Assembly (NCBI GenBank): GCA_020432045.1
Contig: JAGQHB010000080.1
Span: 1-42,700, forward strand
Origin: Dehalococcoidia bacterium
GTDB lineage: Bacteria; Chloroflexota; Dehalococcoidia; Tepidiformales; Tepidiformaceae
DNA length: 42,700 nt
Reading direction: 5' to 3'
Each line of letters begins with the position of its first letter. Position 1 is the stretch's first letter. The translations under genes and the position numbers were made by a program. The notes beneath the pieces were generated by a model. That model was not told the origin of the DNA, ran no database searches, and was given only the letters and a program-made list of their open reading frames with translations. Below are positions 15,673 through 18,773 of this stretch, piece after piece.

Positions 15673-15923
15673 CGTCAGACTCCTTGGATAGTCACCATAT
15701 CCGACATTGAGACTCGGCACTGGCGCACCCGGCCGACGCATTGAATACGCTGCGAACAGCGTTCATCGCGGATGTGCCAGTGGAATCAATTGGCTGGCAC
15801 GCGGACGCGATGGAGCCGGCGGCGAGAATGGAAATCTCGGCCATGAGCGGCTGAACAAGAGGGTAGTGCCGGGGTCGGAGGCTGACGGCACCGAAGCGGG
15901 GAAGCCGGGAGCGTGCTTTGGCG

Positions 15924-15963
15924 CCTCTCACCCTGCCCTCTCCCCCTGGCGGGGGCGAGGGTT
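15924..15963 (+). repeat. Interspersed GC-rich repeat A, copy 3
   Basis: The core CCCCCTGGCGGGGG replaces CCCCGTGGCCGGGG of copies 1 and 2: paired changes that keep the inner arms complementary. Such covariation suggests that the hairpin, rather than the linear sequence, is maintained. Confidence 0.8.
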
Positions 15964-16052
15964 GTGCGGGGGTGGTCTGGCGGGATTCGCGCTTGGCGAC
16001 GGGCGTAATTATGAGGGCAAACGGCGGGCTGCGTGTTTGGAGAGCTTTGGCG

Positions 16053-16092
16053 CCCCTCACCCTGCCCTCTCCCCCTGGCGGGGGCGAGGGTT
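16053..16092 (+). repeat. Interspersed GC-rich repeat A, copy 4
   Basis: Nearly identical to copy 3, including flanks. It ends 12 bp beyond the 3' end of the minus-strand UGSC gene, so its hairpin may form the end of that transcript. Confidence 0.8.
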
Positions 16093-16104
16093 GTGGGTGG
16101 TTCG

Positions 16105-16623
16105 TTAGTCGACGAGGGACTCGAGGATTCTGTCGACGATGGCGTCGGCTTTGTCCCGCATTTCGCTGTCGGTGGCGTCCTGGATGGGGTGGGGGACGAA
16201 GATGCGCTGCACCTCGGGGAGTCCCAGCATCTCAGACTGCTTTTCGGCAGCGTCGATGAATTCAGAGGAGGCGATGAAGACGGCGGGGATGCCCTGGATT
16301 TCGAACCATGTCGTGTCGTGCACACTGCACGTCGTGCAGGATCCTCAGTCGGCGAGGGCTTCGATGACGAAGCCGCACTCCTCCTTGATCTTCTGACGGA
16401 GGTCCTCCGGGGCCGGCTTGGTAAAGGTGGGCTTGGCGTAGCGCCTGAATTCGACGCCGGGGAGGCGCTCTCGAAGGCGCGCTTCGAGCCTGTCGATCAG
16501 GACGTTGCCGCGTGGCTTCGAAATATCGAGCAGGCCAACGACGCCGCTGACTGCCTCCGGCCGGGCCGCGAGCGACCGCCTGACGGGGACGCGTTCATCG
16601 GTTGGATCGAGGATGGTGACCAT
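16105..16623 (-). CDS. UGSC-family selenoprotein (in-frame UGA read as selenocysteine)
   Basis: Read through the UGA at 16345-16347, the frame encodes 172 residues with Sec at position 93. The segment is ECGFVIEALAD-Sec-GSC-TTCSVHDTTWFE, followed by IQGIPAVFIASSEFIDAAE, an unbroken match to the UGSC family named for its Sec-Gly-Ser-Cys motif and found as selenoproteins in metagenomes. A normal stop would leave a 92-residue N-terminal half and an orphan C-terminal half in the same frame; both halves carry family sequence. Sec93 and Cys96 form a CxxC-like selenylsulfide motif, suggesting a redox role, but the substrate is unknown. The start ATG has no Shine-Dalgarno but TATACT lies 6 nt upstream, so the mRNA may be leaderless. 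SelA, SelB, SelC and SelD are not in this window and must be elsewhere. Confidence 0.88.
16319..16344 (-). promoter_or_regulatory. Candidate bacterial SECIS hairpin just after the UGA
   Basis: On the coding strand, five bases after the UGA, CTGCAC-GAC-GTGCAG forms a 6-bp stem with a GAC loop that starts with G. An alternative pairing of TGCAC with GTGCA further on encloses a larger loop that also starts with G. Bacterial SelB-binding elements sit in this place and favour G early in the apical loop. This is a by-eye fold. Confidence 0.5.
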
Positions 16624-16629
16624 TGGCGA

Positions 16630-16635
16630 AGTATA
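16630..16635 (-). promoter_or_regulatory. TATACT -10 element for the UGSC gene
   Basis: TATACT on the minus strand ends 6 nt before the ATG at 16623, the spacing expected when transcription starts at or next to the start codon. No ribosome site is seen, so a leaderless mRNA is likely. The -35 match is weak. Confidence 0.45.
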
Positions 16636-17472: not shown

Positions 17473-18697
17473 GGGAACGCGGGGTCACGCGAACTTCGAG
17501 GCGATCTCGGCGGCGTTGAAGGGCGGGGAGGGTGGCTTCAGAGTTGGGGTTGCCCTGCGGGAGAAGTCCGCGTTGGACGAGGGCGATGGCCTGTTCGACG
17601 GTGGCGAGGGCGGCAACGGGATCGTGGATGCGGTGTTCGTAGAGTTTCGAGAGTTCGATGTAGGGGGTGAGGCGGCGGGCGCGGGGTTCGTCGATGGCGC
17701 GCTGCCACCACTCGGCGGCTTCCTGGTCACGACCGAGGCGGCGGCAGGCGCGGGCGGCACGTTCAATGGTTTCGATGCGAGCGGCGCGGCCGGGGCCGGA
17801 GGCAAGGGCGGCTTCGGCGTACTGGACGACGGCTTCAAGGTCGCCGGCGTATCCAGCCGCGCGGCTGGCCTGGAGTGGAAACTGCTCGACGTCGCAGGCA
17901 GCGCCGAGGTGGGCGGCGAGTGCGACGAGGGAAAGGATGTCCCAGGCGTTGTGGCGGAGGACGGGGAGGATATGGGTGGGGTCGCTGGTGCGGGCGAAAC
18001 GGAAGTAACGCTCCGGGACTTCGGCCGAGGGGCAGTCGTCGTCACGTTCGAAATCCAGGAGTTCTCGTTCAATGTTGGGAAGGCGATGGGATTCGACAGC
18101 GCCTTTGAAGAGGCGGCGATTGGGGTGCAGCAGGTCGAGATGGGGGAGTTGGCGGAAGCTGGGGCGAGCGCGGGAGAGGATGTAGCGGGCTTCGAGCATG
18201 GGGAGGTCGAAGGACTTGCCGTTGTAGCTAACGAGTGCGCCGGCGGTGCCGAGCTCGCCCGCGAGCCCCCCGAGGAGGCCACGTTCGAAGGCGGGGGAGG
18301 GCAGGAGATACTGGCGGAGGTGGAGGGTGGCGCCTTCGAACCGGGCGACGCCAGCAAGGAAGACCATAGCTCCAGCACCACCGAGGCCGGTGGTCTCAGT
18401 GTCGACGTAGACGAGGGCCGCGGGGTCGCAGGCGGCGAGGCGCTCGTCGCGCGCCTGTGGTGCGATGCGGGCCATGTCGAGCGAGAGGGCGCGATGGAGG
18501 ACGACGGAGCCGTGGGCGTGCCCGGCATCGTAGACGCTCTCGATGACGTAGCCGGGGCCTTCGGGCGAATCGAACCAGCGGCCGCCGAGGCCGGCAAGGT
18601 CTTCGTTCTCGGTGACGGACTCGACGCGCGGGAAGGGCGTGGCACGGGAGGGCTGGTTGAGGGCAGCGCGGAGGCGATCGCGGAGGTCAGCGGTCAT
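17468..18697 (-). CDS. mrfB: MrfB-like DEDD exonuclease with TPR tail
   Basis: The 409-residue product is close to the 413 residues of Bacillus subtilis MrfB (YprB), an exonuclease that acts with the helicase MrfA in a UvrABC-independent repair of mitomycin C damage. A ribonuclease H-like fold is evident: VYVDTETTGL supplies Asp99 and Glu101, SYNGKSFDLP supplies Asp164, and RHNAWDILSL supplies His249 and Asp253, completing a DEDDh set. Residues about 285-385 form two or three TPR-like helical repeats (AAEWWQRAIDE, LYEHRIHDPVAAL). The partner helicase gene lies about 0.9 kb away in the divergent direction, which strengthens the call. The ATG overlaps no neighbour. Confidence 0.85.
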   Translation of the reverse strand: MTADLRDRLRAALNQPSRATPFPRVESVTENEDLAGLGGRWFDSPEGPGYVIESVYDAGHAHGSVVLHRALSLDMARIAPQARDERLAACDPAALVYVDTETTGLGGAGAMVFLAGVARFEGATLHLRQYLLPSPAFERGLLGGLAGELGTAGALVSYNGKSFDLPMLEARYILSRARPSFRQLPHLDLLHPNRRLFKGAVESHRLPNIERELLDFERDDDCPSAEVPERYFRFARTSDPTHILPVLRHNAWDILSLVALAAHLGAACDVEQFPLQASRAAGYAGDLEAVVQYAEAALASGPGRAARIETIERAARACRRLGRDQEAAEWWQRAIDEPRARRLTPYIELSKLYEHRIHDPVAALATVEQAIALVQRGLLPQGNPNSEATLPALQRRRDRLEVRVTPRSP

Positions 18698-18702
18698 GGG
18701 TG

Positions 18703-18742
18703 CCCCTCACCCTGCCCTCTCCCCCTGACGGGGGCGAGGGTT
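18703..18742 (+). repeat. Interspersed GC-rich repeat A, copy 5
   Basis: Core variant CCCCCTGACGGGGG. It begins 5 bp upstream of the mrfB start codon, leaving no room for a normal ribosome site outside the repeat itself. Confidence 0.8.
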
Positions 18743-18773
18743 TTGGGACAGTTGGCTGTTGGGTGCTGTTTAG

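Follow-up and report, generated by a model that had tools for sequence, protein, structure and literature searches.

The stretch of DNA analysed here (the window, 42,700 nucleotides from a Dehalococcoidia bacterium) carries on its minus strand a single reading frame of 172 codons, running from 16623 to 16105 and closed by a TAA terminator at 16107-16105. Its sole internal stop is a TGA at 16347-16345. The following features were assigned to the locus:

16105..16623, minus strand: predicted UGSC-family selenoprotein gene, 172 codons plus TAA, with UGA as selenocysteine (Sec) U93; from family matches, alignment and selection
16345..16347, minus strand: in-frame TGA, predicted Sec codon U93 of the D-U-G-S-C motif, which is invariant in a 32-sequence alignment
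16317..16331, minus strand: predicted bacterial SECIS-type hairpin CGUGCA-GUG-UGCACG; from conservation, covariation and a Cys-gene control
16324..16326, minus strand: AGT (Ser codon) that straddles the loop of the hairpin; used by 42/42 distinct Sec genes and by 0/37 Cys genes
16630..16635, minus strand: TATACT, -10-like, ending 6 nt before the ATG; a weak candidate for a leaderless start, read from the sequence

The product of the coding part (16623-16108, minus strand) reads MVTILDPTDER...FVIEALAD-U-GSCTTCSVHDTTW...ESLVD, with EALAD-U-GSCTTCSVHD around the UGA. A sequence-only reading of this DNA had taken two minus-strand frames to be one frame split by a TGA in the context EALAD-UGA-Gly-Ser-Cys-Thr-Thr-Cys-Ser-Val-His-Asp, had placed the product in the UGSC family and had proposed aligning it with family members. 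Translation confirms the single frame and its codons, the family matches span the TGA in both Pfam and NCBIfam, and 31 family sequences align across the TGA without a break. A scan around the gene for sigma-70-type promoters and for terminators returned none, and no full sigma-70-type match. A GC-rich repeat of 75 nt is present in three copies in the window (15910-15984, 16039-16113 and 18689-18763), one of which overlaps the 3′ end of the gene including its stop codon.

The Pfam model PF24696 (UGSC) matches residues 3-171 with 157.3 bits against a cutoff of 25, and the NCBIfam model NF041046 (UGSC_fam) matches residues 28-170 with 168.9 bits against a cutoff of 125. The protein carries U93-G-S-C96, the U/C-G-S-C signature of the family. 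Judged by sequence, the window gene is thus a typical representative of a selenoprotein family that already has a name: it matches full-length, has the invariant motif in its Sec form and shows no difference of its own. UGSC was already listed in 2008 as a major family of the Global Ocean Sampling survey (PMC2398784). We found it in 94 of the 294 sampled genomes of the class. Forms with Cys in place of Sec, whose search had also been proposed, were recovered at 40 loci in Bacteroidota, Pseudomonadota, Actinomycetota and others, with TGT or TGC at the Sec site, and annotated members occur in haloarchaea too. The earlier suggestion of a function particular to this lineage does not fit this distribution, which is wide within the class and extends to other phyla. 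No relatives of UGSC, or of the partner protein described below, were found in the viral contigs searched. Two class members, G051 and G052, each hold at least 11 scored UGSC matches and at least seven partner matches in one genome. These counts suggest an expansion into many paralogous UGSC-partner pairs, and several pairs per genome in turn suggest several substrates.

The machinery for Sec insertion is complete in the host genome (G000; 3.48 Mb, 97% complete), where selA (520 bits), selB (310 bits, above cutoff), selC encoding tRNA-Sec (70 bits) and selD (355 bits) were all detected, as the sequence-only reading had proposed to check. Among the 41 relatives screened for Sec machinery, SelB scored over the cutoff in every UGSC-positive genome. 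The host SelD is itself a selenoprotein, with an in-frame UGA at the usual place (MTSCGG-U-ASKAG; G000:C2, L188:3649 onward). Identity to the nearest orthologues is 0.70-0.73 before the TGA and 0.73-0.76 after it, and dN/dS is about 0.2-0.3 on both sides. To judge from these values, both halves of the gene are under equal purifying selection. This agrees with the earlier remark that both halves look family-like; a diverged and unselected downstream half, or a different stop codon in the relatives, had been named as grounds against Sec, and neither was found. Indeed, each of the 150 class homologues among the matches listed contains a single TGA and is free of other stops. Standard gene-calling programs would break this gene in two, which would fit a TGA that truly terminates translation, a pseudogene or an assembly error. 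Such a reading conflicts with the constant TGA, the equal selection on both sides, the intact Sec machinery and the hairpin covariation described below; we give it practically no credence and regard it as already refuted by the comparative sequence data. A genome-wide reassignment of UGA, for example to Trp, would likewise account for the translation of an in-frame UGA. It is at odds with the presence of tRNA-Sec, SelA, SelB and SelD, with a second UGSC copy in the same genome that terminates at TGA, and with the homologues of other phyla, which carry Cys and not Trp at the site. Its probability is negligible, and the Cys homologues can be taken to have refuted it already.

Bacterial SECIS elements are hairpins that lie shortly 3′ of the UGA and have a G in the apical loop. 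The spacing and loop of the hairpin in the window gene fit this rule, as its apical GU(N) loop starts 20 nt past the UGA's final base. Among 43 distinct Sec genes, 40 have the complete set of six pairs, compared with 1 of 38 Cys genes. When synonymous codons were shuffled within columns, the observed paired count was reached in 0 of 2000 trials. Overall, 98.8% of hairpin cells are paired, and three pairs show changes on both sides. The clearest compensation involves the Cys/Trp codon four residues after C96: where it changes from TGC to TGG, the third base of the codon after the next Ser also changes (GTG to GTC, for instance), so that a C-G pair becomes G-C. Over the 60 nt after the UGA, stability is not beyond chance in a free-energy test (z +0.5), and the 60-mer taken alone has another fold as its minimum-energy structure; what supports the hairpin is instead its conservation, its covariation and the contrast with the Cys genes. 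An Rfam search of the window gave no match. Altogether, the comparative evidence shows, at the level of sequence, that the UGA of the window gene is read as Sec and that the hairpin at 16331-16317 assists in this.

We next consider the fold of the protein. An AF2 model built from the 32-sequence alignment A1, with Cys replacing Sec, reached a pLDDT of 94.8. It consists of five strands alternating with five helices (E-H-E-H-E-H-E-H-E-H), with U93 directly preceding the helix 94-109, and a structure search with it retrieved only generic flavodoxin- or Rossmann-like neighbours. As modelled, the fold of UGSC is flavodoxin-like and not thioredoxin-like. A thioredoxin-like fold had been proposed in the 2008 paper (PMC2398784), and the UxxC motif and the thioredoxin genes or domains found in the neighbourhood speak for this published suggestion. 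The high-confidence model, however, lacks the beta-alpha-beta-alpha-beta-beta-alpha topology of thioredoxins. Moreover, the sequence signal points towards the selenoproteins of glycine and D-proline reductase (GrdB/PrdB), the family has a near-obligate partner protein and catabolic neighbours, and the thioredoxin-like domain sits on the partner rather than on UGSC. We therefore consider a thioredoxin-like UGSC improbable. Sequence searches of solved structures with UGSC, the UGSC profile, the partner profile and a GrdB returned nothing useful.

The signal towards GrdB/PrdB comes from two kinds of comparison. The model of glycine reductase selenoprotein B is weakly matched by 24 of 32 UGSC members (best E 2.8e-6), and other members match GrdF, GrdH or PrdB. 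When UGSC was compared by hhalign with the GrdB/PrdB-type selenoproteins of the class, the probability was 81% and E 1.2e-5, values that refer to one comparison and not to a database search. In this alignment Sec falls on Sec within UxxC, and HP-(I/L)-G of UGSC falls on (F/H)P-(L/F)-G of GrdB. Control comparisons among UGSC, GrdE, GrdB and the partner gave probabilities of 0.0-0.2%. PF07355 (GrdB/PrdB) did not match UGSC, and the NCBIfam GrdB models reached only 13-17 bits, below the membership cutoff. By the weak model matches and the hhalign alignment, UGSC is thus distantly related to the Sec domain of GrdB/PrdB, but lies outside PF07355 by the cutoffs. UGSC resembles GrdB/F/H and PrdB in having UxxC(xxC) in the same place followed by a conserved (H/F)P motif, in its remote profile similarity, in having a second subunit and, as regards glycine reductase, in its supply of thioredoxin. 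It differs from them in being short (172 aa), without the N-terminal part of GrdB, in having a partner whose sequence shows no relation to that of the pyruvoyl subunit GrdE/PrdA, and in being borne by taxa that include aerobes. No match to the pyruvoyl subunit model PF09338 was found in the host genome. Short GrdB/PrdB-like selenoproteins also occur in the host genome (G000:C81, locus L093) and elsewhere in the class (L142-L163). Their frames stop at the Sec-site TGA in every locus read, that of the host included, so that gene callers would truncate them; nine loci (L146, L147, L154-L156, L158, L159, L162 and L163) have some 150 aa of additional conserved sequence in the C-terminal part.

To find proteins associated with UGSC, we compared the ORFs around 81 UGSC loci (the window, 40 Cys loci and 40 Sec regions), using a crude caller of the longest or most conserved non-overlapping ORFs, with which neighbour counts are approximate. 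UGSC itself aside, one family stands out, whose core measures about 350 aa and whose members lie near UGSC in 69 of the 81 loci, mostly directly adjacent and on the same strand. Its consensus begins GWTDGLPVVPPT...VEKxAINAVMAGCxPEYxPVV...GNRANATIGRA; C83 and R150 of the partner are invariant and C181 is near-invariant. In the class it was detected in 88 of 294 genomes, 87 of which also have UGSC (Fisher p 5e-65, shared ancestry being ignored). Seven UGSC genomes have no detected partner, some of them being weak UGSC matches; this is not the case for G206 (E 1.8e-23), nor for G004 and G008 (82-86% complete, E below 1e-42). The two proteins are sometimes fused in a single frame, for example in Variovorax boronicumulans and, in one Sec case, at L133. 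Co-occurrence, adjacency and fusion show a partnership between UGSC and this protein. The 2008 survey noted UGSC fused to a domain, "Unknown_1", that had not been described (PMC2398784); it may be the same partner.

None of 55 partner members had a Pfam match at E 0.01, and an NCBIfam search gave one stray match only. The partner model has a pLDDT of 93.4. A structure search with it returned insignificant matches to cyclic amide hydrolases and class I fumarases (E 3e-3, probability 0.3), and the best structural comparison reached Z 5.4 over 88 residues, with no clear relative among solved structures. A homology of the partner with GrdE/PrdA was considered and rejected, as the hhalign signal is absent.

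UGSC and the partner are each encoded twice in the host genome. The second UGSC gene (contig C50) directly abuts a partner gene; the window copy has no partner alongside. In close relatives with a linked partner (L094, L095, L098 and L102), the latter is of a thioredoxin-fused type, and a matching thioredoxin-fused partner of 522 aa lies in the host genome at G000:C83:29193-30761, downstream of secA. In sister genera, the orthologous UGSC gene has a secA homologue close by in the same orientation (L100, L101, L103, L108 and L111; secA recognised by visual inspection). Most simply, a rearrangement would have separated the window gene from its partner gene. Other neighbours of UGSC loci are catabolic, including family III CoA-transferases, amidohydrolases, DUF6282, BKACE and the isocitrate lyase/PEP mutase family, or serve transport and regulation (TRAP and tripartite transporters, GntR and LysR regulators). 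A gene annotated as phosphosulfolactate synthase lies near the UGSC-partner pair on a Natrinema plasmid (L191) and on an Arthrobacter plasmid (L192); this neighbour, shared by an archaeon and an actinobacterium, is a possible clue to the substrate.

The neighbourhoods also show that the UGSC-partner system is linked to thioredoxin. On 30 partner ORFs, an N-terminal CxxC domain precedes the core. Pfam reads this domain as AhpC-TSA/Redoxin (best 4.7e-7; the host copy, at 2.1e-4, is below cutoff), and the fused domains score mostly near or below the Pfam cutoffs. Elsewhere, free thioredoxin genes replace the fused domain: the order is trxB-trxA-partner-UGSC in Arthrobacter and partner-UGSC-trxB in Roseovarius, and trxB lies a few genes upstream in Variovorax SRS16.

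We propose, with a probability of about 60%, that UGSC and its partner form a two-component, thioredoxin-dependent selenol reductase acting in the manner of GrdB/PrdB. UGSC would be the Sec subunit, working like protein B of glycine reductase or like D-proline reductase. The partner (here G000:C83:29193-30761) would bind a small organic substrate and polarise or activate it. Placed where a helix begins in the flavodoxin-like fold, U93 would then attack this substrate with its selenolate, breaking a polarised bond (C-N, C-O or C-X). C96 would resolve the intermediate by forming an Se-S bond with release of the product, and thioredoxin would reduce this bond and reset UGSC. This division of labour and the chemistry of the pair are inferred by analogy. 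In glycine reductase, a thiol cleaves the Se-C bond, leaving an Se-S bond, and thioredoxin supplies the electrons (PMC10298544). A GrdB-like complex, FarEB, has been proposed to cleave the C-F bond of fluoroacetate in dehalorespiration (PMC10838667). FarEB is alike in that its GrdB-type Sec subunit is proposed to attack a substrate that is not an amino acid and that its FarE partner lacks pyruvoyl processing (PMC10838667); it differs in that FarE is a homologue of GrdE, whereas no such homology is detectable for the UGSC partner.

Several observations stand against the two-component reductase. The link to GrdB is remote, the fused thioredoxin domains mostly score near or below the Pfam cutoffs, and seven UGSC genomes have no detected partner. 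The window copy is not beside its presumed partner, and no relation of the partner to GrdE/PrdA is detectable. In the known enzymes, the pyruvoyl group of GrdE/PrdA is thought to activate the substrate. The pair could instead be an enzyme, for instance a lyase or an isomerase, in which Sec or Cys serves in metal ligation or in covalent catalysis without net reduction, thioredoxin only keeping the residue reduced. The conserved C83 and C181 of the partner would suit such an enzyme, as would the class I fumarase, an Fe-S enzyme, among its weak fold matches. Yet these matches are insignificant, and the closest sequence relatives of UGSC are reductases, so that we hold a non-reductive enzyme to be unlikely, if less so than a thioredoxin-like UGSC.

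The earlier statement that the role of the family is unknown stands in so far as the UGSC literature examined assigns the family no function; nor was a description of its kinship with GrdB, of the partner family or of the tie to thioredoxin found there. The role can nevertheless be narrowed by the relation to GrdB/PrdB, the constant partner and the link to thioredoxin. These three points and the fold are new here, with the reservation that the published Unknown_1 fusion may concern the partner. Beyond the reductase itself, we see roughly even odds that UGSC and its unnamed partner constitute a new class of thioredoxin-dependent two-component reductases in aerobes, archaea and this bacterial class, with a substrate-activating subunit without clear fold match among solved structures, duplicated in some genomes into many paralogous pairs for different substrates. 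The family is probably under-annotated, because gene callers split its Sec genes. A tie to the glycine/proline reductase superfamily, to a constant partner and to thioredoxin would turn an unknown selenoprotein into a testable enzyme, and the Cys forms open its biochemistry without selenium expression. Should the proposal hold, aerobic microbes of soils and seas would commonly use a selenium-carbon chemistry that is best known from anaerobes fermenting amino acids.
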